NCBI RefSeq assembly: GCF_910592395.1
Contig: NC_088313.1
Span: 15,266,437 to 15,330,436 of the forward strand
Length of the DNA stretch: 64,000 bases
Reading direction: 5' to 3'
From: Lineus longissimus
Lineage: Eukaryota; Nemertea; Pilidiophora; Heteronemertea; Lineidae
The position numbers and the translations under genes were made by a program. How positions within the stretch are numbered: the stretch's first letter is position 1; every line of letters begins with the position of its first letter. Shown in pieces: positions 4,141-62,706 of this stretch. The notes beneath the pieces were generated by a model. That model did no database searches and was not told where the DNA came from. It worked only from the letters and a program-made list of their open reading frames with translations.

Positions 4141-4223
4141 CCCACTTTGTGAGTCTTTATTGTTGCAGGATCTTCTCCTAGGTGTTATTCCAACATCTAT
4201 ACCTTTCAGAATGGAGTCGACAA
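4141..4223 (-). CDS. KDM3-like exon 6 (residues 241-268)
   Basis: This 83-nt exon has acceptor CTTTCAG at 4230-4224 and donor GTAAGT from 4140. Read from the split codon it gives VVDSILKGIDVGITPRRRSC then NNKDSQSG. It corresponds to JMJD1C 'VHSLLKG-x-x-(I)GITSRRRS', a basic conserved element that precedes the long variable region. It ends in phase 0. The next exon should start in phase 0 on the minus strand, but I could not recognise one between 1 and 4135. That exon probably lies beyond the left edge, or is a poorly conserved low-complexity exon I cannot identify. Confidence 0.88.
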
Positions 4224-7200
4224 CTGAAAGGTAAGAGAGAAGAGGGTGAGGTTCGTAATGCTCAGGGGACATGTCATCCGACAGTAGATCACAATCAGAG
4301 AAAGACATCTTCTTGTTGATTCATAAAAGTTTGCAGAACGTTTTTGTCCAGTCTTTTTTTGTCCAATTTCATCCAATTATCGGCACTCGGTAATCTCCTC
4401 TCTGACAAAGATGTCAAGAAGTCAAGATTCTCCACATATATGAAGCAATGTCACTGTCTGGTAATTGTGCTGAGAAGAAGGGTCCTGTCTGTCGTCCCAA
4501 CTCAAATCCTCGTGAAAGGTTTTTGAACCTCTTGAAAAATAGATTTGTTGTCGCCTTCTTCTTGTCCAACAGTAGGTGGAAGAAGTGTCCAACCCTTCAC
4601 TTGCGCTCAAAGCCCAAGCACAGAGCCTTTAGGTCACAATGCAGTATCTTTCTTCTTCCTTTTCGTCAACTCGAAGGTAGACTAGTTGTTGTTGTGGTTG
4701 ATTTGTCCTGTTCCACCCAAAGAGTTTTAGTCCAATTTCCGTTTATCGACAAAAGTCTGTTGTTGATGTGACTCAGTGTTGTAAACATCACAATCTCAAA
4801 TCAGGTTTCTTGTACTTTTTCTGATCCGCAATCTCTTCGAATGCTCAGGAATTTTAATGTGTTCCGGAGAGCTGTAAAGCAATGTCCTATTAGAGCAAGT
4901 ATGATTATCAAAATGTGACCGATGATTAGACAAAAATGACTAGCTACCTTGGAAACAAAGAGACGATTACTAAGAATTGCGCACTATTTGAAAGCGGCGT
5001 AGTACACTCACTCACCCTGTTGACTCAGACCCAGACGGTAGAATCAAACTCTATGACTCCTACGAACTGATCAACATCATGATGCGAGGCGAGCGCTTCA
5101 TCGCTTTCTTGGTGTAGCCAGCCATCGAGCTTTTATTGATCAACATGAACACAGGAGTTGTAGTCATATACCAGACTGGTATGTACTCAACACGAGATGG
5201 AGTGCGACGACTGTATCCACAATTATGCCATTCTCGATAACGCAGTGATGATGCATACCAACCACGAGGAGTTATGCAAAATCAACGGATAGTAAATACA
5301 GCTAAATAATTACCAGTAGTAATTTCCCACTTGCAAATAACAAGTACGCAACATTTTTCACAAATATTGCACAGGCTTCGATAACTGTGAATTACACTGT
5401 TTGAAAAGGTAATGGAAAGCCTTAAGTATCTTCATTCCAACCATGAGAACTATCCACCAAGATCCTGAAGTATTCTCCTTGATGATGGTGTACTCAAAGG
5501 ACGAACACTAAATGTTAACTTTTATCTGAGCGAGCTTCAGGCGAACAGCCTAATTGCGGCTGACCATGGATGGGTCCGGAACACTCCTGGCACAATACTT
5601 TCTCAGATGAACCTGAATGCGAGTACATATGCAAAAGTCTGCGCTGGGTAGAGTAACAAAGAAACATGGAAACTGACAAAGCTCATATTTCTAGAAAGAT
5701 GGCTTAAGTTCTTTCAGCAAAGACCTTGAACAGGTCCCAAGGTTAGTTTAAGACAGGGTGGAGCACCCAGGTATTTACTTGCTGCGCAATAGCAAGAAGC
5801 CACACTAAACCTTCCTAGCTTTTTGCTGCCACAGAATAGTAAATAGTACAGAAGATAGCCCACGGCGCGATGAACTTTTGTAGGCAGATTCAAACAGAGC
5901 TATAAAGGTCAGCGCTTTAGAGATGCTGTGAGTGATACAGAGTGGCTTCTGCTTAATAGCTTCCTAGGGAATGGTAACCACAAAGTAGTATCTATATTCT
6001 AGTCTGACCTTGGCAATGGCAGTGATTAATCAAACGTGACGGGAACACATGATGTGATACGACGTCATGGCGGTACAGTGAAGGAAAACCTGTTGGGGAC
6101 TTTGACCGGAGGTTTCGGGACGCAGCGGCAGAGAGACGGGAAGTATCATCAACATGTCATCCATATGAATAACCTACGCTGGGGCTCAAATTGAACCAAG
6201 GCTACCATCATCACCCCCACTGCCTTGTGGTTTCTGCTCATAGCTTTCTTGGGAACAGGTGACCTCAAAAATTGTCTTCGTGCCCTTGGCAAGTCTCTAC
6301 TGAACAAGGCACAAACACACTAAAATACCTAATAATGTACCAGTAGTCTAATTTACACAGAAAGGAAGAGAGAAGATCAGTGAAAAGACCAGCATGGCTC
6401 ACAGATGCATGGAGGTGAACACCAAAGATGTTTCTAAGACGATAATGAAAACATGAGAACAAACAAGGTTAGGACATATCGAATACTAGCATGGATGAAT
6501 CACTATCCATCAGCCTCTGGTGATGATGACGACCAACATCGACCTTGAAAAATGCCGTCATAACTCAGACTTGGTGATGAGTAATAGCCATTTCAGCCCT
6601 CTTGAGGGACAGGAGACTAATCGGATTTTAGCCCGATTGACGTGCTACATGTATGAATGGTGATGGAGCTCAAAATCATTAATAACTTCGTAGTCATAGA
6701 CAGATTACCTGTGTTTACATCAACAGAGCGCAAAAGATAAAACCATTTGATCCCAAGAAAGTTACAACCTCTCCCAGATGAAAAGTGGAAGGCATCAACT
6801 TGCCCGTCTCCAAGATCTAAATGATCACATTTCCTGAGATAAATAACTGAATCTTCATTTACCAGTTGTCAGACACATCTGAGACACGTCTTGAATCATC
6901 CGCGGTTAATATTCTTGAACTTCTCCCTCATAAGTCAAAAGATGGAAATAAAGTCATATTGACCAGGGAATCTATCTTAATTGCCAATTTCACCGCTGCA
7001 GTCAACAATGGAATGGAAACACTGGTTGTGTGTGAGTAGCTGGAGGCACAACTTAAACTGAGATGCCCTTCTACACTCCCACATCCGGTTGGGAATTGCG
7101 CTAGGGGGCTAGTGGGCTAGGAAGATGGGATTTTTGGACTTAAGTTGAGCAGGATGCCAAAATTTCCTTTTGACACTGTTCCAATTCCTAATGTAGCCAG

Positions 7201-16200: not shown

Positions 16201-19200
16201 CCTAAAACTAGAGCTAGCAAGAAATGCACTCAAAGCTGATATTGTACATTGCTATCAAATGTCCCTCAACTTGTAGCACCAAAATAACCAAATTAGGAGG
16301 TGGGATTTGGCAAAATGTGGCCACTTTAGTTCACAAACCAGTACATTCAGGCTCCTTGTGGTTTGTATCACTCCATTCTTCTGTAATAGGAAGCATACAG
16401 GAATTCTTGTGATGTCAAAGACCTGGAGGTCAAGATGAGACAAGTAAAACTGTCAAGGAAAGCAGTTACTGTCTTGTATTGATGAAGACAAAATTCACAA
16501 AGCAACCTTCACTACTGAAGGATTACATGCTGCCTGGACTACTGAATCTCCAACAATGACCCTTGCTTGATTGATTGGATGTATCCCTTTATTCAAACCA
16601 GATCTTCACTCAACCAGTGGTCAATCGAATTTAGATACTATACTCAGCATCCAGCAGGGGTTACCTGTAAAGAATCCATATCATTATCTATTAGGTTTAG
16701 ACAATAAAGGACAGCCACCCAAAGCCTTTGTCCTAGAAAAATGACATGCCAAAACTGATGGGCATCAACACAATCCCCAGCTCCCTAACATATTCAGGCA
16801 ACATCAACTGTAGAGCAAAGACCATCCAGGCCCGTTTGGTTGTAGGAATACAATATAATCCCGGATTATGGCAGACGTCAATATGTCAAATGTTAATCAG
16901 AACACTAAAGCCGTGTATCTCTCGTGACAACTGATGGATTGATGGACAAGGAGGTCTGGATTGTACGTAAAGAGATACCAAGGCTGTATCAAGCCAGGGT
17001 CACGTATGGTTAGAGATTCAATGCTGGTCCAAGTAGCATCTTTAATTTCTCCACGTCTCCTCCTCACAAATCAACTGTCAGAGTGTCATATTCCATCCAA
17101 ATTTCACATCAACAATGTGAAGAGGTTGCATGTTCCATCATCTCTTCTATCTTCAATCAAAGTCTTGGTGCTTGTCAAGCGGCTCCATCATATGTGTGGT
17201 CCGAAATCCTTTCATTTGAAGATTGGCACTCGAAACTGATGGTGCTTGCTTCGGTTGGAGAACACATTTGAAGGTAAATTGTCCAGAGATGAGTATGAAG
17301 GTCATGGTCATTTTCCTTTTTTCTGCCAAGCTAGTAGATGTATCTATCAAATAATATCCACCGTCGCCAAAAAGCAAAAAGTTGCATTAAAACGACATAC
17401 AATCTCTTGTGTTTCTTGAAATGAACTGAGTAAATTCTGATTTTTCAGAAAGAGCTACTTTTTCACCGACATTTAACGGCAGCGGATATCTGCGCCTCAA
17501 CATCTCACGGGAATTTCATCAAATCAGACAATTAGCGATCAAAGAATGAGAACAAATTTCTTCCGCACTCACCTCCATCTCCAATTAATTTCATCTGCAC
17601 CAGGGAAGGATCCTCATTGTGTTCTTCTAACACTGTGTCATCAACCACAGTCAACTCCTGCAATGGGAAAACGGACACGTTTGATGAGGATTTGTTGGAA
17701 AAATGGAACTCGATGTGAATCTCATAGCTTCAAAAATTGTGTGAATGATGTAAGTTAACCCAACCACTAACAGTTAGCTCAGTTCGTTGTTATTGGGCTG
17801 TAAGAACTTTTTGTCTCAGATTTTAGAATATTGAGTTAAAAGCTAAGCATCAACTGGAATCAAAGCAGCTACTAAGAATACACTTGGCTTTGAGTCCAGA
17901 TCAAAACAGATCCTACTCTTCTGCATGGAGAGATTTTGACACTTTCAAATCTTAGCCAACTAATCATCCTGCAGCGAGGGCATGGATCATAGAAATCACT
18001 TAGCATTTTGAAAGCTAGCGGCAATCAATTCTCCCAGGGCTGCATCAGTCACACAGCGAAGGTAATCAATCATAACCAGGATGAAGAACGACTAAAAAAT
18101 CAATCATTTCTATGATTCTTTATTTTTTCAACAGCTGATGCTACCGTGCATTCAGTTTGATATCGAATATTAAATATCGGGACGGATTGGTGACATTTGG
18201 TGCAACCAAATTGAGCTGATGGGTCTGCTCAGGCCAAGCCACACTATTCAAGTAGTCAACAGGACTGGAATTGGGACGATTGTAGGGATCATTCATCATT
18301 CCCACACATTTCTCACAATAACATTCACTTTGCACTCCTTCATGGTTTCAACCACATTTTCACCAGTATGATACCAAATGAACCTCTTGTTGCCGACCAA
18401 AGCACGTCCCCCAGGCTTTCCATCACCCGCCATTCTCAGAAATGCCAATCAATTCCAAGGGCTCAATACCTCTGTTGCTTAATCAGCCGGAGATCTCCTT
18501 AACCCTTATCGGGGAAAATTGCCAGGTATAGTAATTTGAGGCTAACGATAATTCATATTTAGTTAATTACAGTTGCCCGTGCCACAATTGAGACTACAAA
18601 GATGAAAACTCGACTCTTCTTTTTCAGCTCACAAGCTCGCACTTTCATTAATTCTACACAAAAAGCAGCCCATGGGAAGACGAACAATGCCCGATGTCAA
18701 TTTACATACTGCGCTGCACTGGAGTCAATATCGAGACTTTTCATCACCAACGATAATGAGAGAGAATTTCGTATTCACATTTCAACAAGACAAAGAGATT
18801 GGTTCACCAGGGTAATCAACTTGACAGGAAGTATGTATATTTTATCATGATATTAACTCGGTCCTTGTTTTCGTTTCCATGCACAGATCCATTTTTGATA
18901 CTAATAATTTACCTCATTTTTAGAAAGATCAACAGGTTTAGATTTCAAAAAAATTTGAATTTGTGCCAGGGTATTTAGGCCTGAAGTAGGCCTATTCAGA
19001 TGAATTTGCCACTGGCCAATAATAACATCACACAGGGAAATTAGAATGGGGACATTCATGTCCTTTGCTGGGACAGTCTTGATCATCGCCATCATAAGTA
19101 GGACAACGGGTCAATTGACTCATCCCCTTAACCCAGTGTGATATATCATAACACAGGCAGGAACTGACCATTTGAACCTTTGCCACTGATGAATGACGAA

Positions 19201-22200: not shown

Positions 22201-25200
22201 GCCCAAGGGACACAGAAGGGATGTGACGGCTGTCATCGTGGACAAAGGGGAGGAGGGAATAAATGAATAAGCAACAACGGCCAGTCAAGTTCAATTACAA
22301 TGGAGATGCTCTTCAGTAGAACTAGCCTATCTCGAAGACTGTATATTTTCTGGTATCAACTGTGTACAGTATATGAACATCCCTGCCAATATTTTGAGAA
22401 CTGGTCAATCTGTTTATCTCATGAGTACACCTACATTCCATTTTTGTTTGTTTAACTATATTTGCTTGCGTATTAGAAAATCGTTAGAAACCACCTCACC
22501 TTAGTCACATCGTTATAGGACTTGATGACCGCAGTGTACCACTGTGTCGTCCCCTCAGACCGATACACCCGTAGACGATATCCAACAAGAACTGACGGCG
22601 TTGTCAGCAAGATTTTCTGACCATCCTGGTCCTCTATCCAGTTTTTCACAGCTTTTCTCACTTCGGGGTAATCCTTGACTAGATTTGAAACAGGCGCATC
22701 CTCTTCCTGTAAAGACAAAGATAAGACAACAGTTAAGAAAAACTTCAGCATATGCCTAAAAGTTTTAACAACTATATTCATAAGATGAGGGTTAATACCA
22801 GGCAGACAGTATGAAGCACATCAAGGAGTTAACCACACGGACCTGGCCTGTTCTCCAGGAAGAAACTTCTCACCACCTGGATGGGATGAATAGAATAACA
22901 TGTTTACAAGTACCATGAAACAGGATGCTGTAGAGCCCACAACTATTCCACATGGAAATCATCGCAAGAAGGGGAAGCAGACACGACTGAAATCATTTTC
23001 TCAGCAAAATATATTTGGCTGTTCCCATTGACAGCAGATGTCAGAAAGGACACAGGCAAGGGAAAAACATGAAAACACCTTCTCGGCCTCATCCTTTCCT
23101 CAAAAGGCCAGGTCTGTCGGTATAGTTGTACACACAGGCCTACTGGAAAAAGTATATGCCTCTCCACACACATTGGCCCAGGAGTAATATTCACACACCG
23201 TACCAAAAAAAGAATTTCTAGTGCATAATTTTACCGACCAACATGTCAAAGGGTGGAGGATAAAGTGAGCAAAAACTATGCCAAGTTCACCAACAACAAA
23301 TGTTCTGCCAAGTCATAAATAGGAAGTATTTGCAAAAATTATGTGTGCATGTTGATTGATTGCTTGGCCCTCGACCAAGATTGACTTTGTCGAGAAAAAA
23401 ATGCATACGGCCAACCTAGTCGGCAAAATATATTGCACTAATTCAATATGATTAACATAGTTTGCTTAGACCACAGACCGTGTTGGCGTTGCTGGCCTTG
23501 CCTATTTTGACTGTGAGTCATGAACACGCCAAAGAATGTCAATATTATTTCCCTGCAGGGATGTATGGGTAATTTAATCACTAACGCAATAATTGCCAAG
23601 GTCAAGGTCATCTGGGGCCAATGTTTGTACTATGAACATCAAACAAGCACCTAAAAGAATCACACTTCCCCTCACAGGATGTCTCCGCCCTCGGGTTTTT
23701 AACCCGTCCCCACCCAGTCGAAGAATTCCTTCCAATATGAACATGTAGACCCCCCACCCCCACCTCTTGAAGTGTTTTCTATTGTTAGATGAGGAAAAAG
23801 ATCGCCCATGACTTGCTCTAGAAATACTGTATGATGGAAGCATTCTCAGAGCTGCTATTACCTGATATTTCTGTTGATTTTTATGAGGGGAAAGCCTGTT
23901 GGGGGTAGGTAGCTACGTCTACTCACAACCATGGTTGTAATGATCAGCACCTGTATTTACAAGATACACGATTCCACAGCCCAGAGCAGTCTTATCACTC
24001 AAACAGCAACAGCCTCACGAATGTATTGCACCTGGTTGGCTTTTTCTGCACAACTATAAGGCTGATCACAGGCACATGGAGACCCAAGTTTTATCGTATT
24101 CAGAGAGCCAATAAAACAATAATTACTGGTACACCAAACCTATTTTATTCCATCATTATTGGATCATGACTTTTAAAATGGCACTAAAAACATTGAAACT
24201 CAATATAAAAGGCCAAATGAATCTGCAACAAACAGTGCAGAAGACTTCAAAATGACAAGTTAAACTTAAAGACCAAGCATTCTAAAAGCCTTATTCTTCA
24301 TCATCACTTCAACGAATGAATTCACAACAGCATCTCTGGCCTTCCCATCACATCCAAAATTGCCTTGCTCAGGCAATGTGTGAAATGAGAAAGGTTTTAT
24401 CAACGCATCTACTGCTTGTGGCAAAATTGCTTTGCCGTTGCTGCTGACTGATCAATCTTTCTACAACTAGACATGTCACATTTCCGCAGCGCTCCTTGGG
24501 AGAAAAACTACGACGTATTTTCAATTACCATACCCGTTGCCATGGAAACCAATTTGCAACGTCTCCAGAAACGCAGGGAAGACATTTACTCGACTAGAGT
24601 AACTGTATTATTTATCCTTATATCCCTTGGCTATAGCATTAATGGTATATGGATTCTCAGAAGGATGCTAATGCCACTAGCAGCGGCCTATACATTTCCA
24701 ACAGCGTCAAATAAGTTCAAAGGGGTATGATCAAAGAACGTAGGGATATCTGGAATAGGATTAGATGCCTGGCTTTCTGATTATAGGGTTATCCGATTGA
24801 CGCCTTTTGAAGATTGAAAACAAGAGATAATCGGAAGGACTGGACACAAACAGATGGATGGCTGGATGGATGGATCCGAAACAAACATAAATGGATTTGT
24901 TCAATGATGAGTGATACTGGCAAGGTCTCTTGAATTTTCAGAACCTGAGAAGCACCATCAACTGAGACCGAACACATCCCATTGTCACGGGATGCCACTC
25001 AAGAGAAAGGCCGCCCTGAAGTCTCAAGATAATACAGATGACATTTTGACCTGATGGAATCGGTTTCCATGGTTACCAAGAGGCAGCTAGGTTCACTGGT
25101 GCCAGTTGGCTCTTGTGAAGCGTGCGGCTTCATCCCGAGAGACTGAGAAGGCAGGCTCACGAAATGGTGCAGCGGAGAAAACAGGTGGATTATTGTATTT

Positions 25201-31200: not shown

Positions 31201-34200
31201 CTTCAGATTATCTTTAGAGCCAGGCAAATTTAAAGCATCACCAGAAGTCAGACATGGACTCGGACAATCAAAGATGTATGGACTCACCTTAAAAACACAG
31301 ACTTCCCCTTCGTCAATAAATTCCAGGTGGTTATCCTGAAGAAATTCAATTGGTTTCAGCTTTCCATTTGCTATCCCTGCTTTATCCACTAACTGTTTGA
31401 AATTCTGCAAGAGGAGAGAGCATAGTTGAGTTAATCTGCTTTGTTACAGACAACATATATGTCACATGTAAAGGTGGATTGTGATTCTTTGACCTCGGAG
31501 AGTCCTGGTTGTGAGGCCTTTCACCATTGAAAAATTACAAAATGACAAATTTTCCGATGATACCTAGTGGATCTTATAATTACATGCGCCTCTTGCCACG
31601 CTCTATGCGGCCTACTTTACGTGGGCTCCTGACATGATAAGTTCAGGGTTTTGACCCACAATCTGTAACTATCTTTCCAACTCATCCCCCAGTATTATGC
31701 TTCAAGAGAAGAATGCTCATCATCAGTTAAGTAGATGGCTCCATTCTGTGAGAAGACCATATAAATTCTATCATTGTCCACAAATCCCACAACCATGTTT
31801 ATGGTTGCACTTTGATGATATCTCACCGCGCCACAGTCACACAACGGCCTGCCAAATCTCCTTGCTGGCGCCTCCTTCTAAATTAGTACTACCCGACCTG
31901 TTTGGGAAATGGCCCATTGATTTTCTTCAACACACATCAGCCAAAAGCTAAGCGAGCCACCGCTGTTCAATATTTCATATCTAAGGCCAACATATCAGAC
32001 GCACATTGAATATTCCCCCACTCATTTTGAATGCTTGTGTATTCAGGCAGGTTGTTGGCTGTTTAATGATAGTCAGTTTTGATTCAAGAATGGGCCGGTT
32101 CTAAGAACTGTTCTATAGACGATCTGATAAATATTTCGGAAAAAAGAGTTGGCCGGATTGAATTGGCTCGTTTGACTGACACTGCCTAAAAGGTTCACCC
32201 ATAAAGTCTGGTCCGTCACTGCCTGACACTGACACGTAAAACTCTAGTCAGTCGCTGCGTTGAGAGATCACCCATGAAATTTTGTCTATCACTGCATTGA
32301 GTCTACATTCTTTAAGTCAACTTCTGGAGTACTTTACAGGACTTTTTATATTGTGTATACCTACCAATGCTGGCCAGTCTAGTTTCTGCTTATTTTTGGT
32401 AAGATCTGTCCTAGATCCCCATATCAGGTTTTCCTCCACCAAGAATATCTGAAAGATGTTTTCATGTATTCTAATCCATTCACGGCGCGACCAATTGCGA
32501 TCATCGAACTCGACCAGAACCTGAAAATACATGAGAAGAGACTAAATGAGATATCTTACATGATAAGGAATCCATCTTCTTCTTTGAAATTGGCACTAGC
32601 TCCGAAGCAGTTATGACAAAAATACAATACAAACTATGCAAGGGGGGGGGGGCACAGGCAACAAAATTACAGATTTCAGGGAAACAAAGACGTTTCTGAT
32701 AATTAGAAGGAAGAAAGCAACAAGACTACAATTTTTTGATGATTCACTTTATTTCCGTTTTCCTTCAGTAAACAAAATATTACAAAAAGACAACACCTGG
32801 TAGTTTTTTTTCTTCTAAATACTTAGATATAAAAAATATCAAGTTGTTTGAAAATCATCACAGTAAGCCTCTACATCCTTCTGCTGTTCATTTTTAGTCA
32901 GATTTGTTACTTGCACATGTCATGAACTGACAACAATACAAACTATTTCAGATATTTCAAGTCAAGGGGCTAAGCTATAAGACATTGTAAAACAGGACTT
33001 TACAGGTTTGAAAAGCAATAATGAAGGTAATAAACCAACTGCTACTTAGCCACCTTACAAACCCCATTATTTCCCATACAATTTGTATCTGAAGAGATGG
33101 CCATCTGGTATCTACATGGAATTGGGGACAGGTTGTTAATTGGCATGCTTCGGGCAATCAAACAGTTAGTTGGAGTTCGGAAATAGATGTCCTGAGATGA
33201 CCACATGCAAGGCTTATGCATGGATGGGCTGATTGTCTGATGCATTAGTGAAACATGTTTAACGGAGATCCAGAAATTCCCTTTGACCTTGACAATCTAT
33301 GGTGGAATTATAAGGAGGGATTGCCAGCTTTACATGTAGCTTCACAGACCTTTTCGGACAAACCAGAAACACAAAATCTCGGAACCTGCTTTCAGAAATA
33401 CATCCAGCTCCAACAAAAGAATATAACGACACCCAAATACGAGCCGATTCAAAGTAGACATGAAAGGCGCAATTTATATCTCTCGATTCGATGATACATT
33501 TGATTTTCCGATGTGTGCACCTTGATTACGCTAGTGCAAGGGTGCGAACTGCGTCGATGGGTTGAGTAGATGTGCCTTAATGGAGTACGCCACCCAGGGT
33601 ATCAAAGATTAACAGTGTGATTGATGTTCTGCCTCCAACACAGTTTGACAGGAAGAGATTTTGGTCCAACAAGAGTGCCATTATGTTTTGAGATGGGAAC
33701 TGTCTCCCACACAAAAAAGCATCATATTTCCAGTACGAAATGTGTAAGTAAATCTACTATGTTATTGAATGAAAAGTAATTAAATGGGCCTGATATTGTT
33801 GGACTGCACTTGACCTTGTGAGATTCCCAGGGATATGATAACAGGTCAGCCTATACGAGCCTCCCCATACTCAGATGAGAAGGCCAAGGCAACAGCAGAG
33901 TTGAGTACATAGTGAAGCTATGGAGCAGTCTTGAGTAGACAGTTTTAGATAAGTTATTTCTAGACACTACATTCCTGAGTCAGTGAAAATGATACCACAG
34001 GTACTGCTAATTGTATGGAGAGTGTTACCTCTACTCCACAAGGACTGTGAGTGTGTAGATAGGCAAAAGGCAAGTCCATCTGGATAGAAATAGCAACTCA
34101 GGTGCAAGGGTAGTCAGATCAAGAGCGACCACCAAAACAGACATGAAGTTGCAGCATTTTTAATCAGGCAGAGGCATATTTTTGACAGGTTTTTAGTGAA

Positions 34201-44011: not shown

Positions 44012-44609
44012 GATAAACCTCAAGTATCCATAGTTTTGTGTAATGGTGTAAATTGAGAAAAAAATCGGGATAACACTGGAATGTCTCCCAGAATTACGGC
44101 GGATGAATACCCAGGGTTTGGGGTCAAAGGTTTGCAGTGAGCAAAACAATCTTTGTCCGCGGCCCTTTAAAAAACGTAGTTCTCTAATTTAACGCCGATC
44201 TGCAGTTTGTTCTTGTTTTATTTTCACAAAAATATAGAGATTGTAACTCGTACATTATACTTTAGTTCTGAGTATCTTAATTCTGTTTAAAGGCATGATT
44301 TCGAAAATTTAATTTGATGGGGATATCCCAATCACATTCCTCAAAACATCTGCTTCTGCTACGGAATTCCCCTCTTTAAACATTGAAACGTCGTTTCATT
44401 TGACTTAATTTGCCCTTGTTAGTTTAGATTATAACATTATGTTGCACATCATATAATAAACAATACAATATCAGATGACCAGAGTTGATTTTCAGGGGGA
44501 AATACTTGATTTGGTATGCTCAATCTTGCGTGATTGTCAAATCATGTGACCCCATTTCTGACGTCAAGTTTCAAAATGGTAGCCGTCTAACGACCACTGG
44601 ATAGGCTCA

Positions 44610-45563
44610 ATGTTATATCCAATCCGCGTTAGCAGGTCATGTGATCTTTGAGATTTTGTAAACAAACGCACGTGCGCAGTTCAAATGGTGAACATGAAAA
44701 GGGTTTCTTAAATGGGGACTATAGGTAGGAGCTGGGGGTGAAATTGGTGGTATTCATTTTACTAATACGCGCAGTTAGGGGCTTTAGCCTTAGGGGAGGT
44801 GGCGTTTTGTATGTGTCTCTGTCAATAGGATACTCCTCATTCCCCACTCTGAGTTATAGGTCTACCACCAGCCAATTTCTGCTGGTTCTTGCTTCTGGTA
44901 TTGGAGGCGTCTGGTTCTAGGTAATTCTCCATGGGGATACCGATTTCCCCGTTCATGATTTTCTTTAGTCGTATATTTTTACGTCTCTGTGCCAATGATG
45001 ACTTGGAACAGACCGTTCTACTACTCACGTGTTTGGTCAAAACACGTGAGTAGTAGAACGGTCAGGTAAATCAGGCTGTAAACCGATAAAGAATAATGAA
45101 TAATGAAAAAAAGCCTCATCATCTTTTCAAATCTCTCGGACGGTAAACTGGATTTATCATTAATCATTCCCATGGCCTTAAAAGCAGAGATTAAGTTCCA
45201 TTAACACGGCAGAGCACTGTCGCAATCAACTGGGCTTTCAGCTGGGACAAGTATAGACTTAGGGTACAACCTTTTATTCATTTTCCTCATACTTTTTTGG
45301 GCTCTGTGGTACTTAATGTCTTAATTGACTATGTCCTAAATAAAACCTATCCACAAAGGCATGGTTTATTATCAATGACACTACCGCAGCTCATACAAGC
45401 TCCTACCTATAGTCCCCCTTTAAGAAACCCTTTTCAAAAGTCCGGGAAAACCCAGGTCGGCAATTGTTGCCATTTGAACTGCGCACGTGCGTTTGTTTAC
45501 AGTTTTAATTCCCGCGAAATCTCGAAGATCACATGACCTGCTAACGCGGATTGGATATAACAT
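44610..45563. mobile_element. Large imperfect inverted-repeat element
   Basis: The left arm 44610-44733 matches the reverse complement of the right arm 45398-45563 with indels. Shared blocks include ATGTTATATCCAATCCGCGT plus TAGCAGGTCATGTGATCTT, GTAAACAAACGCACGTGCGC plus AGTTCAAATGG, and AAAAGGGTTTCTTAAA...GGGGACTATAGGTAGGAGC. The right arm carries two extra stretches (about 15 and 30 bp). Inner sequences are unrelated except for a perfect hairpin at the centre. No coding sequence; probably a foldback or MITE-type element, or a duplicated regulatory segment in inverted orientation. Confidence 0.85.
45011..45063. repeat. Perfect hairpin, 24-bp arms, 5-nt loop
   Basis: 45011-45034 is the exact reverse complement of 45040-45063, separated by GGTCA. 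Each arm includes the E-box CACGTG. It lies near the centre of the larger inverted repeat 44610-45563. Confidence 0.95.
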
Positions 45564-46940
45564 CGGCCTCTAGTTGCACTGTTTACTTTTTGTACTTACT
45601 CGAAATTTATAACGTTTCGACGACCTGAAGTGGGTTAGATTTTGTGATAATGGTTTCAGCATTAATCTCGCGGCTTATAATGTAAGTATACACCACCTTG
45701 CTCTCAGTTTAAACTGCGAAAAAAGATTAAAATCACACCCTTTTTTCAAATCCACCAATTTACACTGGTAGATGTACATCTACACACATGCATTATGTGA
45801 ACTGTACTCTGTCTGTAGTGTACACAGTGCACTACTACCAGGGACATACACATACATAATGTAAAATTGCACAACAAGTGCTTGAATGTCAGACCATGAC
45901 AGTTTGTATTAGGCAATAGACAGGCTGTCTGTATAATTGTATTTTAAGGAATTGTTGATTTGAGGACAACAGACAAAAACAGTAAGATTCAAAGACGAAA
46001 AGAACGTTATTCAACAAGCCTCCAAGTTCCAACTCAAACAGCATTTTTCCCTCTCTGTTTGTTTGTAAACCGACTCTTTTGGCACCTGTCATGGAAAGGG
46101 CCATTTTCCATTGTAATGTATGATATTACAGAATTGCCATTGACCCGCCACTGAGTGACCGAGTTACCCATCTTGCTATCAGTAACACTAACAGATATTT
46201 TTCTTATTTGTATAAATCCATTCAGTGCCATCATTGCATCAACCTATGAAAATAGTAAAATACTACTTTGTTCCAAAAATATGTGCGCTATCTCGTAAGA
46301 AATATCCACCTTTGAAGTTTGTCTGCCTATTCTTATAGTACGTCCCAGACGTGAGGAAATGCTGCAAAATTCTTTGCTGCATCACTTCGAGGCACCTTGG
46401 AATAAATAATGGGCCTAGTGGTAGGTATCTTGTCATGTCTGTTTGATGAAAGTACTTAAATGTATCAATGATGTGTCCTTAGCCCAATTACTTCTTTGTT
46501 ATTGTGTTACATTGGAACAAATTCTGGGCTGCGTTTATGTAAATGATGAGCAAATATTTTCCCCCTGTGTACACTTTACCATCATCGTTGTTCTGGTAAG
46601 GCTTTGCAAAATATGTTTATGTTTAGCTGTCCTACACTGGGATCAGAGTTCTGGTTGCAACTACAGATTGATTATATATCTCTAACTCGACTCTATTCAA
46701 ATTACTGATGGTGAATAGAGCTGATGGATTATTCAGCAAAACTTGAACGAAAGACTTATTGCTTGTGCAGTTGATCAGTGAACTTTGTTCATTGTTCCAT
46801 ATTTTTAGTTCCACATTGTAGAGCTTACAACACATTGACATTCTATATCCAGCCAGAGGAAATAGCGGCGAATGCAAACAGCTATTGATTCCTGGCATCT
46901 TCCTTGCTGCGCTCAGGTCTAAGTGAGGATCAGCTAGCAT

Positions 46941-53969: not shown

Positions 53970-54080
53970 GTCCCTAATAGAGAGGTGTCCAGTTTAGAGC
54001 GGTCAAATTGAATTGAAACGACCAATTTGTGGCTAAAACTAGTGTCCTTAATGGACAGGTTGTCCTTAATAGAGAGGTGT
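53970..54080 (+). repeat. Degenerate minisatellite of TGTCC-TTAATAGAGAGG units
   Basis: GTCCCTAATAGAGAGGTGTC at 53970, GTCCTTAATGGACAGG at 54044 and GTCCTTAATAGAGAGGTG at 54062 are decayed copies of one short unit. Intervening sequence is too diverged to count copies. Confidence 0.65.
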
Positions 54081-54668
54081 TTGCTAAGGGATGGTCCGCT
54101 GTATATATGCAGATGGCAAAAAACCGTTATCTGCGGCTTATGCTGCACTTAAATAATCATTCATTCTGATGCCTGGGGATTTCACGGTGGTTTTTTAACA
54201 GTCGAAAGCTCATGCCGAGTACTTTACAGACATAAGTGTAATGTGTTCTATACAGGAATATGATGGTGTTGTCCCCAGTTGGCAAATATGGAATTGAGGT
54301 CAACTCTCCAGATCCAGCTGTTCCTGGGACCTCGTAAGCGGTGAAACTGCGGCACAAAGTCCTGAGCCATAATGAAGGCAATCTGAAATACACCTACTGT
54401 ATCATTATGTCGCCTACGAGCTAATTTGATCTGGACGAGATTTTGTTGGTGGTATGCGTATACATGTATGTGCCAATATCGAGTTCAATCGAATTAGAGT
54501 TTTGTTGGTATTGTTTGTACAATCAGTAACAGGTGGCATGGACGGATATCGTTTGATATATTGATGTGGCAGACCGTGCCTATTGGCTGCCCCTAAAGGT
54601 CACCTCAGGCCTACATGGCCTAGGCCTTATATGAAGGACTATCGAACCAGCCATTGTTATTCATCATC

Positions 54669-54703
54669 ATGATTCTCGGTGCCTTGACTTCGACTGTCAT
54701 TCA
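54669..54703 (+). CDS. REEP-like exon 1 (start codon)
   Basis: The sequence encodes [11 protein letters not shown] plus two bases of a glutamine codon, followed by a GTAAGT donor at 54704. A at -3 gives an adequate start context. The first base of exon 2 completes the codon, giving [20 protein letters not shown], which has the length and hydrophobicity expected ahead of the conserved [10 protein letters not shown] block (vertebrate forms start M-V-S-W...). No other candidate start lies close upstream. An alternative first exon is possible at 56948 (see findings). Confidence 0.85.
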
Positions 54704-57700
54704 GTAAGTTAATATTTTATTTTTGCCGGATTCTATCTTTGACTTTCTGCGTAGATTTGTTGGAAGGCGTATCTTGAGTATCCCCCTTGGTTTCTATTAC
54801 AAAATTCTCAAGCCTGGCTTCAGGTCGTACTAATACTCCGCCCCTCTCCTAGGCCTCCTAGTGTTAAGAGAGACGGTCCTCCTGGTATTGACAGGATTAG
54901 CCCTTGCCAAGGATTCTAAGAACTGTCTCTGTTTTGAGGTGCCTCGAACCATCAAACGAAGAATAAATCAATATCTTGCCTTATACATGTATGATCAGAG
55001 CAGCTTGCCCCTGCTGAAGGGATCCACAGAACAGCAATTCCCGCATTCAGTTACATTTTTAGGGTCAAAATGCTTGGTTTTGGAGTGACAAAGCTTGAAC
55101 CTTCAAGATTTAAAGTAAATTTTGACACAATCAACATCCTTTGACAGATTCAGATTCTGAGTTTGACTGCTAGGTGTCGTGGCACATAAACTTTGGTCCC
55201 ATATGTGACCTTGCTGGTACCTCACTTGTCCCAATTCTCAAAAACTAGCAGCCAAACTCGGAAGTTCTCAAGAAAGATGGTGTCACCATCTAAAATCATC
55301 ATTGGCAAGTTATTGGCTTGTTCTTGGTCTGGTCTGGCATGCCGAAGTGTGTATCGCTGCTGCAGCATTGTGTCAGGCTCCGTGACTACTTTGATGGACT
55401 AAAATATGCCCACCAGAGGAGGCGTAAGGTTCATGTAGCGGTTTACTTTTAGTTCAATTTCTGAAGCAAGGTCAGAATGGCTGCAGAATTGAGTCATCTT
55501 CTTTGTGCAAACTTCAACAATCCATAGGGAGGGGTGAGGGGTAGGATCAGCTTCTCTTCTTTGAATTTCTCCAGGATGCAGCCTCATGACCAATGTTTCC
55601 AAATAACCAAAAAAGATTCTTTGTTTCGGCAGACATCATGCATAATTTTGGTAATTTGGCAATTCCCAAATCATCTGGCGAGCACTTTAATTTATCGATG
55701 ATTCACAAATGTCATCACCGCTTAACTCAGGAGTTGTGACCTCATCACTCAATTTGAGATTGGACTTCCGATCTCTACCTACACAATGAAATTATCATTA
55801 ATTATCCACAGTTTGTTATTGATTTTTGTTGACGTTCTTTTGTTAGGCTGACCTCTTTCAAATATCCTCCTTTGTTATGAAATGACCATCTCCCTAGATT
55901 GCAGAGATGACCTGAGAGAGCCTGCGTTATTTGACATGACATTTCCAAAAGTGTTTTATGATTATAATGAATAATGATATTCAACTAAAATGGCCCTCCT
56001 TTGTTGTTGGTAGTTTTGACTGCTCAATTTTGGTGGCAATTGGTAATCCACAGTTTCTGAATTTGAACATAATTTCACCATTTGCTTAATATGGAGAGAA
56101 ATTGTCAGAAAGTTATTAGTTTCTATATATTCCTTTGTTTAGCTGACTTTGCTCATCTGTAATCAGATGGTAGGTTTTTGTGTCTGGCTTTTGATTGCTC
56201 AACTGGAATGAAAATTGGTGGAACTTGTCTGTGGGAATCCTTTGAACTTTTCATAAACATGCTTGATTGATGTCATTGGTTTGTTGCTGTGTTCGTTGAG
56301 TTGAGTTTCCAATTTGTTAATTTCTTTCTCATTGTAACACTTTCTGTCCCGAGTTGACTAATAAATAGAAGTCGTCATGAATCTCTTTGATCCTTTCCAT
56401 TTTCAGTTTACGAAACAATTAGAAAACTATAGGAAGCATTTACAACTAACAATTTGAAGAAATATGCGATATCTCCACCAAAACATATAAAGGCTCATTG
56501 ACTGCAGTTATGTAGTGTTATGAATTTCATAGCCAGACCTCTCATGTTTGGAATTTCGGGATTATATATATCCTTCCAAATTATCGGAAATGACACAAGT
56601 TTATGGAGTAATGTAAACTTTCAGGAAATGATAGGACCAAATTCCGCCAGAATGAACTTCCCTGGATAACATAAATTGACTATTTGGGATTTCAGCCAAT
56701 TTGGGAGACAAGAAAACAATGCTCATCCAGGAAGTCAAACAATGGAACTACGTATGACTGAATGCAGTAATGACTTTCAAACAAAAGCAAACTTGAGCTT
56801 ATTAAGGATGAACTTTCCCACCAGTCTTTGACAATTAAGTGACGCAAGAGATCCTATTAATGCCCTACTGTGCCCTTATTCCCTCACATGCCCGTGGCTC
56901 ACTCAGGGATGGTTCTTGAAACATACATTGACTGGTACCGTAGCGTGATGGTTCTCCTTATCTATACGTTTTGCAGATTGGTCTTCGGGACCCTCTACCC
57001 GGCCTACTCGTCATACAAGGCGGTCAAGACGAAAAATGTCAAAGAATATGTAAGTACTGAAACTATTTATCCACTTCACAAGTCAGATTCAGATTCAGTA
57101 CTGGCCATGTAGTACTTAACCATCACACGATTTTGTAGAAGTTATTGCTTATGAGAGTAAAAAGTTCTTTAAAATTTCTCCTACATCCATAAAAAATCAA
57201 TGCGTTGTCAATGTCATTAGCTTACAAATTCTTCCATTGTACCAGTTTCATTCTTGATTAGCTCAATCAGTTTTGAAATGGCGTGTACACCCTAGAATCA
57301 CTTGTTGGTACAACCTCCCATGGCAGATGATTCTCTCAGAATGCAAACTATGCAGTTATGTTTCCTCACTACGACCTGGTAGCGTCCGGAACTGTATTCA
57401 TAAAAAAAATCAGTCATGACTTATACATGTACACATGTACTGTGAAAATATGATTCAAGAGGACTTCTGTCTGTTAACAGCCTTGAAACAATAACAGTGA
57501 TTTACGTCTGTTGCTGGGCAACGGTATATCAACAATGACGTTGCTATGATAACGACTATCAACAGAGACAAGCCCAGTGGCTCTGGTCAATATTTCAGAA
57601 AAGCAGCACTAAGTTTACCACGAACTACAGCAACAGGTTGTATAGACCAGCCCTGACCCAACAAAATCCAACAAACTCGATGCCTGAGCTCTATATATTT

Positions 57701-60700
57701 GTATATATATCTGTACCTCCTTGATATCTCATGATCTTCATTTCATTCTGTATTTCAGGTACGCTGGATGATGTATTGGATTGTTTTCGCCTTGTTCACA
57801 TTTATAGAAACACTCACAGATGCCTTCCTCTCGTGGTAAGGAATGAAAAATGCGAGCCCTCTTACTTGCCCGACCCAAAGGCTCAAAATAGTTTTTTCTC
57901 CCTCTGTGGCATTTTCAAAAACACTTAAAAATGGTTTCAAATTGCCGTTAGGGCTGCCAAATTTGCATCAGAAGCAATGGAAAACATTGTTATCAGTAGC
58001 CAAGGTCATATTTGGAGGGGTTCCTTCTCGATATGCGCCACCCTCTTGTCATGTGGAGTTGATGATACACATGCTTCTTCAAGGAAAATGTCAATTTTGT
58101 TTGGAAAAGCTTTGAGAAAATGTTATTAGCTGATTAAGAACCTGAGTGATGACCTTGATCCAGTTTTCTGTATGAAGTATGAAAATAATCGGAGAGATGG
58201 AGTGGTCAAGTGGTGTATTGACTTGTGGTGTATTGACTTGTGGTCTGACTATCGCTGGTTTAAAGAATTGATATCAATCTGGACGGTTGTCTGTTCAGAC
58301 AATTTGAGGGTGGAGCTGAATTGTCCTCGAAGGCCAAAACTGAGGTGGCTGGCCAAAGTTTCGTACAAAATGTTGGCTCCACCCAAGCAATTTTTTGTGA
58401 GTTGAAGTAAGGCCGACTGCAAGATATGTTATAATCTCATTTCTATTCTCTTCCAGGATTCCATTTTATTACGAAATCAAAATTGTGTTTGTGATATGGC
58501 TGCTATCACCGGCTACCAGAGGGTCCAGTATTCTGTACAGAAAGTTTGTCCATCCACAGCTCATGAAAAGAGAAAGGGTATGTATTCCAATAGAATCATT
58601 GGACGATCAATGTCCTGGTGACTTTTGGTGAGGGAGACTTGATATGTGCTCAAGTTGTAGTGCTCATTGACCCTTATATTAGGTCTACTATTAAAAAGAT
58701 TGGGTTGAAGTGTGAAGTCGGATGATGACCTCTAGCATAGTTGATATCAGACTATAAACCCCAACTTTAACTTAAAAGGTCAAGCCTTACAAGAGACTCT
58801 GGATGAAAACACACCTTGCAAACTGAAGGACAGTCACAAAGACTGAAGTTCATAAATATTCCCGTTTTGCTTGCAGGATATAGATGATTGTATAGCCACA
58901 GCAAAAGACAAGGGTTGTGCTGCCTTAATGACGTTCGGTACTAGAGGTCTGAACTACGCAGCAAATACAGTTGTACAAACTGCTCTTAAGGTAAGTGCGG
59001 CTCCAACGTGAAAACTTGTCTTGGGATCTTTGAAGTGCCTGCTAGTGCTAGTTCAGTAGATTGCATTTTTCCACATAGAATACTTCAAGCCTGTTTTAAT
59101 GCTTTCAGTGGATGGTTATTTGGTCCTGTTGAGAGTTTCAAGTCAGAATCGTGAGGTTGATGACATTGGAAGTTTGAATCATCATTGCATGTCTAACTTC
59201 TCGAATGACTCTGCCCGATAGCTCTATTTTCGCCGCCATATTTCACTTCGATGTGTACATTTCAGGGCCAGTTTATTTTCCTACAATATATTATGTCAAA
59301 ACCTTGGCAGGTAAAGTGTATACTTTGATACTGTGTACATTTTTTGCTCTAAAGTGTCTTCTGCCATACCTTCATACAGTAGTATTAACCCATTGCATTG
59401 ATGTCTCTCTGCTGTAACCTGCATTGCCAACAGCCCTTGGTTGGGAACGAGGTTGCTCATTCTTTGATGCGTCTTCTAAAAAAAGGCTTATTTATTTACA
59501 CCAAGTCAAACTTGATGTTGAGATCTGCCAGGTTTGATTGAAACATTGTACTTCACCTGCTTCTAAGAGGGAGGTACTGTTATCAACAAACATGTCTGAA
59601 AACTAACTCTGCACTGGCTGATCAGGAAAGCAGAGTGGGGTTCTGGGGTCTGTCCCTGTTGATTGTTTTTGAAAACAGTCTTCAGAATTTTAGGGATGCA
59701 AATTTTCTTTAAATCTGTGATCTGTGTGTTATTGGTGGGAGAAGATGGAGGGGGGGGGGTTTCTTATGCTGTACCATAGGCTTATTTAATGATAACTTCA
59801 GCTTTCGCTCAACCTTGCTGCTTCTGATTTCTGATCAATGATTGAACTGAGTTCATGTGGTTTCCATCAGTGGTAGCAGTGTTTATCCATATTACAGGTA
59901 GTTGCTATGATTCATCACATCATAGACCGAACTGGAAGCTGTATCTGTGCTGCATCTGATCATAAACAGTCTCAATTAACCCTTTGGAGATTCTGATCAC
60001 AGCTAGCGGAATAACTTTATTGGTAGTGGTCATCTACACTGGGATTTATTATCAATCCTATCAAAAACACCTTGGTTGGGATGTAGCAGTGTTTACAGTG
60101 TGTAATGCATTGTGCCTTGTTTTGGTGGCAGTGGTTAGTATGGCAAATAAGCCTTATTTCTTTTCGTCTTTCCAGGGCCAAAGTGTCGTTGCGGACCACC
60201 TTAAGAAAAGTTACAGCATGAACGATTTATCAGAACGTTCGTCAAATGAAGAGGTATTCGATGAAACAGGTGCGTATGATACTGCAAATAACAAACATCT
60301 TGCAGGTTACACCAGGGACAGGGTCCTCACCAGAGGGTACGATTGTTACGTTTTCCATACCCTCCAAGAAGTTGATGATGGTTTTTATTTTCAATTGACC
60401 AATATTTTCAAAACTCAACATATTCAGAGGTACAGTACTCTTTCGGGAAGAGGGGAAGGGGTCTACCAAAAAATTTTTTTTTACTCCTTCAAAAATATCG
60501 ATAACAATAGATGGCCCCTTTCTTTTTCCTCATCAGGACAATGCAGTGCCTATATTTTATATGGTAACATGTTATCACTTGATACACGTGCCAAAATACA
60601 TGCATTATTGACATGCTGTGTTGTCTTTTCAAGACATGCCGCCAATATCGGGGAATGCCACTCTACCTCGAGCAAAAACCAAACCATCTGATCAGTTAAG

Positions 60701-62706
60701 AGCTGGCAAAAGTAACCTTAGTAAAACGTATAAGGAAGCAAATGTTAAGTATCTAGGTGTTGTGTTAGGCATACTAGTAGTTTATCCCACATTTTTTGTT
60801 CAAATCAGGATAGTGTTTTGTCTTGTAGTGGTTTGTCTGTTCCAGTCAAGCATCAGTCACTAAATGGGCGTTCAGATATGGCCGAGGTCTAGTGTAGTTA
60901 TCTCGTTAATAATCCCTTTGCATTTTCCTCCTCTCTTTTGATACAGTTTTCTTGTCTTCTCTTATACCCAGTTGCATCATCCAACTCTGTTGAACTTCTC
61001 TCCTTCCATATCATTTTGTCTTTTCTTATCTTTTACCCTTTCATAAACCTAACTTAACAATGCCTGATTCTTGTTGATTTTGGGCAACTGTACGTACATT
61101 TGACACTTGGCCAACCTGTTTGTGCACCAGACTCATTGGTCGAAAGTCATGTGTTTGACTCTTGGTGGTGTCTACATGCCAATCTACCAGCATTGGGCGT
61201 GTATATCCAGGAGACCTTAGGACAGATTTTCACCGCCTGTAAGTGTGCATGCTCAAACCAGGAATGTTCCAAGTGTCCCTCCATCAATGTTACCATGCTT
61301 CATCTTGATTGTCTTCCCTCCATCCCTTTTACAGATCTGTATGTTGAAAGACAACCACGACATCTTCACACAAGTAGCCACGAAAATCTTTCTACTGTAG
61401 GGCGACGAAAACGGCATACGATTAGTGAAAATTACTCATCAGGTACCAACGGTTCTTTGAAAAATCATAATCTGAATTTGTTGTATTTTGAGCTCAGATC
61501 CATTTTGGAAGGATTTCCTTGACCAACAGCTGACATCATAATGCTGGGCTTAATTTGTTCTTTGCTGTTGCCCTGTTGCCTAAAAGTTGTCTCAGTCTTC
61601 GTAATCGTATTGTAGATAAAGAACTATATGTCTTCCACAGTTGTCCACTTTCCTGGTTCAACTAATACTGGTTTGTTCCGCATGATTCCTCCTGATTCAT
61701 CTTGTCAGTACCAGTAGAAACTGTTTCAACTAACTGATTTCAAATTGTACTTTGAATCATATCAGATCCAGCTGAACTGTCCTGTAATGGTCTTGCTTAC
61801 AATTGGTGTCATATTTACTCATCAAAACTGACAAAAAAGTTGTGAAAGCAATTGTTCCAAATTCTATCAGCTTGTCCATCAAGATCAGACAGTTTGAAAT
61901 ATGCCATTTTCCTGATTTCTGAGGTGAATATCTGTTTTGAATTCTACATTTACAACCCTTTGGCGATATCCAGTTTATAATCTCATCCGCCATGTTTGTT
62001 TCAGAGTTATATGAGCTGCACGAACGTGATGAAGAGCAGCAGTACACACCCACTCCAGAAACATCCGACAAAGTCCAAAGAAGAACCCATGCTCAGAAAG
62101 AGGTGAGGCTTTAGCTTTAAAACTTAATACTCCTATTGTACAGGTCTTGGTCTTGAAAGTGTGTGATCAGGGCTTAGTGTTATAGAGCACCCTGAAGAAT
62201 CAGCACCACATTTTTCAAGGGTATTCCAAGTTCGAGGTAGGATTGCCTGAAAATGTTATCCATTTCCACGAGGTCACCTTGCTAACCCACAGAAAAAGCT
62301 AGAATGTTGCATCAAAATTTCAATTAAATGGCTCGAAAATACTAACAGAAAGAAGAGGAGAAAATCAAAATCATAAGGGGACTCATACTGCCTGAGTTGC
62401 ACCTTTGTAGAGATGATGTAACTTGGCAGATATTTTCAGTGGTGGGATAAGAGGGAATCTGGCTCTCAAAGGCTGTGGGTTAGCTCTATTTTCACCCCAG
62501 AAGCATGAGGAGGCAGGTGGTGTATTTTTACAGAAAATAAGAATGAAATGTCTAAAAATGAAGCAAACCCTGAATACTAATGCCACATTGCTTTACTACA
62601 GGAGTTCCTCGGTCAACCTCCCCGCGGGCCCATTGTGCAGACCTGGCGTGGCGAGGGGCGCTGGATTAACCGCTTCCAATACTGGAAAGACCGGGCAGAT
62701 CAGTGA
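54669..62706 (+). CDS. REEP1-4-type receptor expression-enhancing protein (TB2/DP1/HVA22 family)
   Basis: Ten exons join in frame: 54669-54703, 56977-57049, 57759-57835, 58457-58577, 58877-58990, 60176-60269, 60634-60720, 61335-61442, 62005-62102 and 62602-62706 (stop TGA). The product is about 303 residues. [65 protein letters not shown] and a GQSVV...SYSMNDL segment are REEP1-4 signatures. The family are ER membrane proteins with hydrophobic hairpins that curve tubules, and some bind microtubules through the cytosolic tail. Hydrophobic segments lie at about residues 3-21, 39-60 and 63-82. [10 protein letters not shown] and the GLNYA block resemble insect ReepA. The N-terminal 172 residues are secure. 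The tail exons (7 onward) rest on splice phase only. Drawn as REEP1-4, not REEP5/6, because of the long tail after the TB2 domain. Confidence 0.92.
54704..56976. other. REEP intron 1 (2.3 kb)
   Basis: The intron runs from donor GTAAGT to acceptor TTTTGCAG. No repeat or exon was found inside, but its last 100 bases are open in the frame of exon 2 and could form an alternative first exon (see findings). Confidence 0.8.
56977..57049 (+). CDS. REEP-like exon 2 (residues 12-36)
   Basis: Acceptor TTTTGCAG and donor GTAAGT bound a 73-nt exon encoding [20 protein letters not shown] then VKEY. This is the near-invariant first half of the TB2/DP1/HVA22 domain in REEP1-4. Exon 1 plus exon 2 make exactly 36 codons and the exon ends in phase 0. 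Confidence 0.96.
57050..57758. other. REEP intron 2, with RFX X-box-like site
   Basis: A 709-bp intron with canonical borders. The only site noted is GTTGCTGGGCAAC at 57510-57522, a palindromic X-box-like motif. Confidence 0.8.
57759..57835 (+). CDS. REEP-like exon 3 (residues 37-62, last codon split)
   Basis: Acceptor TATTTCAG and donor GTAAGG bound a 77-nt exon encoding [20 protein letters not shown] then DAFLSW, with the last tryptophan split TG|G. The segment is a membrane-embedded hairpin arm. The 'WMMYWIVFA' core is shared by almost all REEP1-4 proteins. Confidence 0.96.
57836..58456. other. REEP intron 3
   Basis: A 621-bp intron, GTAAGG to TCTTCCAG. It contains a 15-bp tandem duplication (TGGTGTATTGACTTG twice, about 58211-58240). 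Nothing else was seen. Confidence 0.85.
58457..58577 (+). CDS. REEP-like exon 4 (residues 62-102)
   Basis: Acceptor TCTTCCAG and donor GTATGT bound a 121-nt exon encoding [20 protein letters not shown] then [20 protein letters not shown]. The 'YYE-x-K-x-x-FV-x-WLLSP' and 'LYRKFVHP' motifs are the family signature. SPATRGSS is closer to insect ReepA (SPAT) than to vertebrate SPYTKGSS, by memory of those families. Confidence 0.96.
58877..58990 (+). CDS. REEP-like exon 5 (residues 103-140)
   Basis: Acceptor CTTGCAG and donor GTAAGT bound a 114-nt phase-0 exon encoding [20 protein letters not shown] then [18 protein letters not shown]. It matches the amphipathic segment after the membrane hairpins ('EIDD-x-x-x-x-AK-x-(R/K)-(G/S)...(F/L)G-x-(R/K)-GLN-x-A') that precedes GQG in vertebrate REEPs. 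Confidence 0.95.
58991..60175. other. REEP intron 5
   Basis: A 1.2-kb intron, GTAAGT to TTTCCAG, with a poly-G run near 59750. A long open frame runs from 59984 through exon 6, but its first part has no resemblance to the family and reads through the acceptor. Confidence 0.8.
60176..60269 (+). CDS. REEP-like exon 6 (residues 141-172)
   Basis: After the acceptor TTTCCAG the exon encodes [20 protein letters not shown] then [11 protein letters not shown], corresponding to vertebrate 'GQGA(L/I)(S/T)ERLRSFSM(Q/H)DLTT'. Two donors are visible: GTATTC at 60254 (phase 0) and GTGCGT at 60270 (phase 1). The second is the better donor and fits the phase-1 acceptor of exon 7, so it was chosen. Confidence 0.88.
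60270..60633. other. REEP intron 6
   Basis: A 364-bp intron assuming the 60270 donor. Open in the frame of exon 6 for its entire length, so retention would add residues rather than an early stop. Nothing else was seen. Confidence 0.65.
60634..60720 (+). CDS. REEP-like exon 7, cytosolic tail (end uncertain)
   Basis: A CTTTTCAAG acceptor fits a phase-1 entry, giving [20 protein letters not shown] then QLRAGKSNL. Two candidate donors, at 60721 (GTAAAA) and 60757 (GTGTTG), are both phase 1 and both compatible with exon 8. They differ by 12 codons. Neither is strong. The Ser/Pro/Lys-rich composition suits the variable REEP tail, but there is no motif to confirm it. Confidence 0.6.
60757..61334. 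other. REEP intron 7
   Basis: Intron between the exon 7 donor (60721 or 60757) and the exon 8 acceptor. T-rich, with no repeats or exons noted. Confidence 0.6.
61335..61442 (+). CDS. REEP-like exon 8, cytosolic tail
   Basis: Acceptor CTTTTACAG and donor GTACCA bound a 108-nt exon with phase 1 at both ends. It encodes [20 protein letters not shown] then [15 protein letters not shown]. The exon is symmetric, so skipping it would keep the frame. Basic and Ser/Thr-rich content fits the microtubule-binding or phosphorylated tail of REEP1-4 proteins (inference). The open frame continues past the donor, so the exact end is by splice-site choice. Confidence 0.68.
61443..62004. other. REEP intron 8
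   Basis: A 562-bp intron, GTACCA to TTTCAG. Nothing else was seen in it. Confidence 0.65.
62005..62102 (+). CDS. REEP-like exon 9, cytosolic tail
   Basis: Acceptor TTGTTTCAG and donor GTGAGG bound a 98-nt exon, entering in phase 1 and leaving in phase 0. It encodes [20 protein letters not shown] then [13 protein letters not shown]. It is acidic then basic, with no stop in the required frame, and both splice sites are good. Phase agreement on both sides is the main support. Confidence 0.7.
62103..62601. other. REEP intron 9
   Basis: A 499-bp intron, GTGAGG to ACTACAG, if exon 10 is used. Nothing else was seen in it. Confidence 0.55.
62602..62706 (+). CDS. REEP-like candidate last exon 10
   Basis: The acceptor TTACTACAG leads in phase 0 to [20 protein letters not shown] then [14 protein letters not shown] and a TGA stop at 62704. 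The segment is clearly GC-richer than its surroundings, which suggests coding sequence. A second frame is also open here ([15 protein letters not shown]...), but it does not agree with the phase of exon 9. No homology could be recalled for this tail, so it remains a phase-based call. Confidence 0.5.
   Translation, partial: EFLGQPPRGPIVQTWRGEGRWINRFQYWKDRADQ

Follow-up and report, generated by a model that had tools for sequence, protein, structure and literature searches.

Why does a KDM3 gene lie head to head with a REEP1-4 gene in a nemertean worm, and does this arrangement represent the state from which the linked human loci arose? KDM3 is an H3K9 demethylase of the JmjC family, and REEP1-4 are ER membrane-shaping proteins. 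On the human map, KDM3A/REEP1 (2p11.2), KDM3B/REEP2 (5q31.2), JMJD1C/REEP3 (10q21.3), and HR/REEP4 (8p21.3) are each near-neighbours. We analysed a stretch of 64,000 nucleotides (the window) from Lineus longissimus, a heteronemertean of the phylum Nemertea, at positions 15266437-15330436 of contig C6 (NC_088313.1; 21,663,950 bases) in the 391 Mb, 30-contig assembly GCF_910592395.1. In the window, the minus strand carries the 5' portion of KDM3 and the plus strand the greater part of a REEP1-4 gene. A sequence-only reading had proposed this head-to-head pair, and exon matches, Pfam domains, and start codons lying 1,638 bp apart confirm it.

KDM3 exons were located by tblastn with 11 KDM3 protein queries, which gave six exon matches on the minus strand of the window, from 44,011 down to 4,135. 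The match at 44011-43805 (7 of the 11 queries) identifies coding exon 1 at 43856..44011, with 52 codons, the start of DUF7030 (67.6 bits, Pfam cut-off 27), and a GTAAGT donor. The match at 32532-32362 (9/11) sets the 3' bound of an exon at 32362..32520 that encodes the end of DUF7030 and the start of the PWWP domain, both below the cut-off in this exon alone. The bounds of the remaining four exons are those of their tblastn matches: a PWWP exon at 31288..31404 (2/11; 31 bits, cut-off 27), an exon with the PWWP end and the start of Tudor_KDM3B at 22497..22715 (8/11; 50.6 bits, cut-off 27), a Tudor exon at 17574..17663 (9/11; 34.3 bits, cut-off 27), and a weakly conserved exon past the Tudor domain at 4135..4284. 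The last is the weakest match (4/11, E 1e-4) and has no KDM3 match in Pfam. DUF7030, PWWP_KDM3B, and Tudor_KDM3B each exceed their Pfam cut-offs in separate exons, as in the N-terminus of KDM3 (JMJD1) proteins. The proposed span of the pair, 4141..62706, begins within the weakest KDM3 exon; no REEP exon was found at its right end.

The gene continues to the left of the window. Long linker exons are found there, as are an exon rich in Cys, with Pfam zinc-finger matches below the cut-off, and the JmjC exons, which lie between approximately -46.3 and -48.2 kb on the window's scale. The JmjC domain scores 29.6 bits in Pfam (cut-off 24). When the joined JmjC part of 282 residues was compared with solved structures, all 7 matches were KDM3B or JMJD1C (best E 9.5e-119), placing this C-terminal domain closest to KDM3. 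The HxD motif and the later histidine, which serve as iron ligands, align with KDM3B. In all, the coding exons cover approximately 92 kb, the exon at 4.1 kb being separated from that at -31.0 kb by an intron of approximately 35 kb.

On the plus strand, exons between 56888 and 62102 match L. longissimus REEP proteins, the first two exons exactly. Models P0001 and P0002 both start at 56,888, in sequence that reads through the acceptor of exon 2. Farther left, at 45,650, a short sequence followed by a GTAAGT donor is matched by the REEP N-termini of Capitella and Lingula (E 1.0, weak alone). Joining 45650-45681 to 56,977 yields 21 residues that closely resemble a 21-residue stretch of Capitella REEP, and the eight joined exons are open for 239 codons. 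Although unproven, 45650..45681 is taken here as the conserved first coding exon (MVSALISRLI), and the spacing of 1,638 bp depends on this placement. Protein matches and exon joining place exon 2 at 56977..57049, exon 3 at 57759..57835, and exon 5 at 58877..58990, together with two exons of isoform X3 at 61335..61442 and 62005..62102. Exon 4 at 58457..58577 encodes the TB2/DP1/HVA22 domain (protein match, PF03134). Protein matches also support an optional exon that both L. longissimus models include (59266..59310), an exon with a segment resembling the region of the 14-3-3 site (60176..60269), and the alternative last exon of isoform X9 (60633..60860, match to P0002). Isoform X3 ends with an exon beyond the window (65961..66029).

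Both domain content and similarity assign this gene to the REEP family. PF03134 is above its cut-off at 58437-58556, and a search of the genome found two PF03134 loci, the other of which, on C2, is REEP5/6-like by eye. In full alignments the window REEP scored 221-293 bits against 29 REEP1-4 rows and 84.7 bits against the C2 locus. In a tree of 31 rows, which holds no vertebrate REEP3-6 and has a very long outgroup branch, the Lineus gene pairs with that of Tubulanus, another nemertean (91/87), and the clade formed by fish REEP1 and REEP2 (100/100) excludes it. Within that sampling, scores and tree group the gene with REEP1-4 and not with REEP5/6, in line with the proposed clade. The proposal of one unduplicated ancestral pair is supported for its REEP half, since the protein falls outside vertebrate REEP1+REEP2 and the genome search gave a single locus of REEP1-4 type; both results are consistent with one gene that predates the duplications. 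A region with a 14-3-3-binding serine sets REEP1-4 apart from REEP5/6, and the 14-3-3 site RLRSFSMQ has been published (PMC3411107). A 10-residue stretch in the exon at 60176..60269 looks like it by eye only and is a putative 14-3-3 site. The comparison of REEP with solved structures returned no match.

The 1,638 bp between the start codons (44012..45649, from exon positions) is the proposed shared promoter region; the three ORFs within it have no Pfam match. The CpG observed/expected ratio is 0.72-1.02 in ten 500-base windows across 43251-46000. This increase is only modest: the ratio averages 0.55 over the surrounding 164 kb, and one of the ten windows passes the 95th percentile of that region, 0.99. 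In non-repeat 43857-44600 the ratio is 0.90, in 44601-45564 it is 0.77, and in the short stretch 45565-45750 it is 1.17.

Most of the gap is enclosed by inverted copies of a dispersed repeat, the left at 44601..44750 on the plus strand and the right at 45398..45564 on the minus strand. The left copy has at least 51 matches in the genome, including both copies here, and a symmetrical promoter built on long inverted repeats was accordingly rejected. Nor do the data support a single two-armed element as the rule: seven other repeat loci examined each have one copy within 1.5 kb, and we therefore do not claim a single insertion, although opposite-strand matches a few hundred bases apart exist on C3, C4, C10, and C17. 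If all of 44601-45564 were inserted, the remaining gap would be approximately 675 bp. As the gap lies mostly between the two copies, the closeness of the genes may in part reflect rearranged sequence.

To what extent are the two genes linked elsewhere? Contigs were compared by eye through their sizes in protein listings (the best 120 of 1746, 1616, and 3070 proteins), an approach that shows linkage and not adjacency. Among the matches listed, 12 species occurred in both a REEP and a KDM3 list; Clastoptera arizonana, which came without contig sizes, was excluded. Of the 11 other invertebrates among these matches, five carry both genes on a single contig (Mactra antiquata, Babylonia areolata, Pomacea canaliculata, Macrosteles quadrilineatus, and Pieris napi); they make up five of the six listed species in which both contigs are chromosome-sized. 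B. areolata has a second listed REEP on another contig. The genes are on different contigs, again among the matches listed, in Tachypleus tridentatus, Lingula anatina, Trichonephila clavata, Ylistrum balloti, Nucella lapillus, and Gryllus longicercus. At least one gene lies on a contig below 5 Mb in five of these six split species, with KDM3 of L. anatina on 18 kb, whereas both T. tridentatus contigs are chromosome-sized, making it a chromosome-scale counter-example. For the listed matches, a binomial model with a 10% same-contig chance gives 5.5e-5 for at least 5/6 and 0.0028 for at least 5/11; with a 25% chance the values are 0.0046 and 0.11. These values are rough because the species are related. 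For the claimed persistence across phyla, the listed matches show linkage in five of 11 species, with Tachypleus as an exception.

In vertebrates, a REEP1-4/KDM3-HR/EGR paralogon has been described, and the legend of Fig 4 in the same paper identifies amphioxus relatives of REEP1-4, of EGR1-3, and of HR/KDM3A/JMJD1C/KDM3B (PMC3411107). Duplication of the pair in vertebrates, part of the sequence-only reading, was therefore already in print. The paralogon resembles Lineus in having the identical two families as neighbours, with a single amphioxus counterpart named for each; Lineus differs in being a nemertean, in having its gene spacing and orientation known at base resolution, and in showing no EGR-like motif within 204 kb. 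Among the papers listed by searches that named these genes, this was the only one judged relevant by title and the start of the abstract. A literature search for REEP, KDM3, and microsynteny, with supplementary files outside its reach, found no paper. Ancient gene pairs are reportedly listed by Irimia et al. in 2012. Since KDM3 and REEP are neighbours in vertebrates as well, their association probably predates the divergence of worms and vertebrates. What Lineus adds to the published vertebrate half is a lophotrochozoan case in which REEP is single and the layout is compact and divergent. Overall the sequence-only reading is partly supported.

We lean towards the following explanation as a whole. 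The window would preserve, in its unduplicated state, a KDM3/REEP1-4 pair of ancient bilaterian age that originated divergent, with one shared promoter region driving both genes. A break within this region would cost one gene regulatory sequence, and the pair would therefore have tended to remain together. In vertebrates the promoter would later have been pulled apart while the neighbourhood persisted in the duplicated copies. The divergent layout makes the proposed regulatory constraint plausible. The identities, orientation, and spacing of the genes in Lineus are observed, as is their linkage on one contig in five other invertebrates among the matches listed. That the genes were already adjacent in the bilaterian ancestor (drawing also on PMC3411107), that they shared promoter activity, and that regulation kept them together is inferred.

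The distance of 1,638 bp between start codons, the raised CpG, the linkage, the REEP tree and locus count, the published paralogon with its amphioxus counterparts (PMC3411107), and the frequency of bidirectional promoters in amphioxus (25%, compared with 12.83% in mouse and 7.84% in zebrafish; PMC6292497) support this explanation. That paper also describes ancestral bidirectional promoters as disentangled in vertebrates; its main text mentions neither KDM3 nor REEP (0 and 0 occurrences). The Lineus pair resembles those it describes in that two divergent genes of an invertebrate have their 5' ends near each other, but it is known from start codons and not from transcription starts. Weighing against the explanation are the REEP models that start at 56888 rather than 45650, the repeat-framed gap, and the CpG that is only modestly raised. 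The different contigs in 6 of the 11 species among the matches listed, including Tachypleus, count against it too, as do the location of Drosophila KDM3 and REEP on different chromosomes and two tandem human pairs. The human pairs are divergent at 2p11.2 and 10q21.3 and tandem at 5q31.2 and 8p21.3; orientation altered at two of four loci argues against a strict shared promoter at those loci.

An ancestral neighbourhood might also be merely unbroken, without selection. Slowly rearranging lophotrochozoan and chordate genomes retain many such pairs, and conserved whole chromosomes alone could explain the shared contigs. Microsyntenic blocks of great age abound. For the bilaterian ancestor, 256 newly formed blocks have been estimated, compared with 45-56 when genomes were shuffled, and of the hundreds of old blocks many were lost in vertebrates (PMC8851819). 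It is against this background of loss that retention in four vertebrate copies, indicated by the published paralogon (PMC3411107) and by the human map, speaks against inertia, which we regard as possible but rather unlikely. Independent origin, with Lineus and chordates each having brought the genes together on their own, has no supporting result. The chance that a given pair is adjacent is about 1 in 10,000, assuming 15,000-20,000 genes, and among the matches listed both molluscs and insects include species with the two genes on one contig; we set this origin aside as highly improbable.

A regulatory block would hold the genes together in another way. Enhancers of REEP or of a nearby gene such as EGR could lie within the large KDM3 introns, and the genes would therefore be unable to part. 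The extent of the KDM3 coding exons, with their intron of approximately 35 kb, suits this idea, as does the membership of EGR genes in the same vertebrate paralogon (PMC3411107). However, ORFs of at least 30 residues in 204 kb around the pair contain no EGR-like finger motif, a search that a split domain could escape, and an EGR gene beside the pair was rejected on this result. A short fragment of an EGR finger, used as a query, gave noise only. We give the regulatory block little credence. A combined course, in which a bilaterian pair with a bidirectional promoter lost it at all four vertebrate loci and enhancers in KDM3 introns serving REEP took over, appears quite unlikely. If it were true, the human and invertebrate loci would form a natural series from promoter sharing to enhancer sharing.

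The favoured explanation, a shared promoter region in an ancient pair, has a parallel in PDI/RhoGDI, two unrelated genes that have stayed together since early animals and through vertebrate duplication (PMC5722932). Those genes share one orientation, and coexpression and physical interaction are reported for them, whereas the Lineus pair is divergent and known from sequence. Should adjacency hold in more phyla, the vertebrate and amphioxus neighbourhood would date back to the last ancestor that worms and vertebrates share, and start codons 1.6 kb apart offer a concrete ancestral form that can be tested by reporters. REEP1 is a spastic paraplegia gene, and association signals exist at JMJD1C/REEP3 and KDM3B/REEP2. 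With adjacency so confirmed, the linked human REEP1 and KDM3 demethylase loci would gain a common history, which would bear on these signals.

An Rfam search of the window gave no matches. To the left of the pair lies a Cu/Zn-SOD repeat protein. Among the ORFs to its right, an HMG box, an SH2 domain, and a weak match to uracil-DNA-glycosylase were recognized.

Both Lineus longissimus REEP models start at position 56888 of the window, and the sequence from 56888 to 56976 continues through the acceptor of exon 2. Either the gene has an alternative start at 56888-56976 or the annotation there is an artefact, because a conserved REEP first exon is located at 45650. The alternative last exon of isoform X9 (60633-60860) codes for a hydrophobic tail.

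In the interval between the KDM3 and REEP start codons a dispersed repeat occurs twice, the two copies being inverted relative to each other (44601-44750 and 45398-45564). The left copy returned at least 51 matches, and the inner part also matches repeats in 2 of the 7 other loci examined (L014-L020). A perfect inverted repeat of 24 bases with a 5-base spacer is positioned at 45011-45063 in the same interval, and CACGTG is present within it. The first KDM3 intron contains a tandem array of 5.7 copies of a 53-base unit (36726-37030).

To the left of KDM3, a long minus-strand ORF encodes three Cu/Zn superoxide dismutase repeats (3121-4971 of the left-flank sequence L022). In the right flank, repetitive long ORFs on both strands, which look like a tandem repeat array, are placed between REEP and the next gene (window coordinates ~71-77.7 kb, L008-L009). 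The right-hand neighbour ORFs include one with a weak, below cut-off UDG match (L010:2984-3322), one with an HMG box (L010:9303-9833, 77 bits) and one with an SH2 domain (L012:4806-5099, 22.6 bits).

Among the matches listed, the mollusc Babylonia areolata has two REEP1-4 proteins (P0050 and P0056) encoded on separate contigs, and its KDM3 shares a contig with only one of the two.
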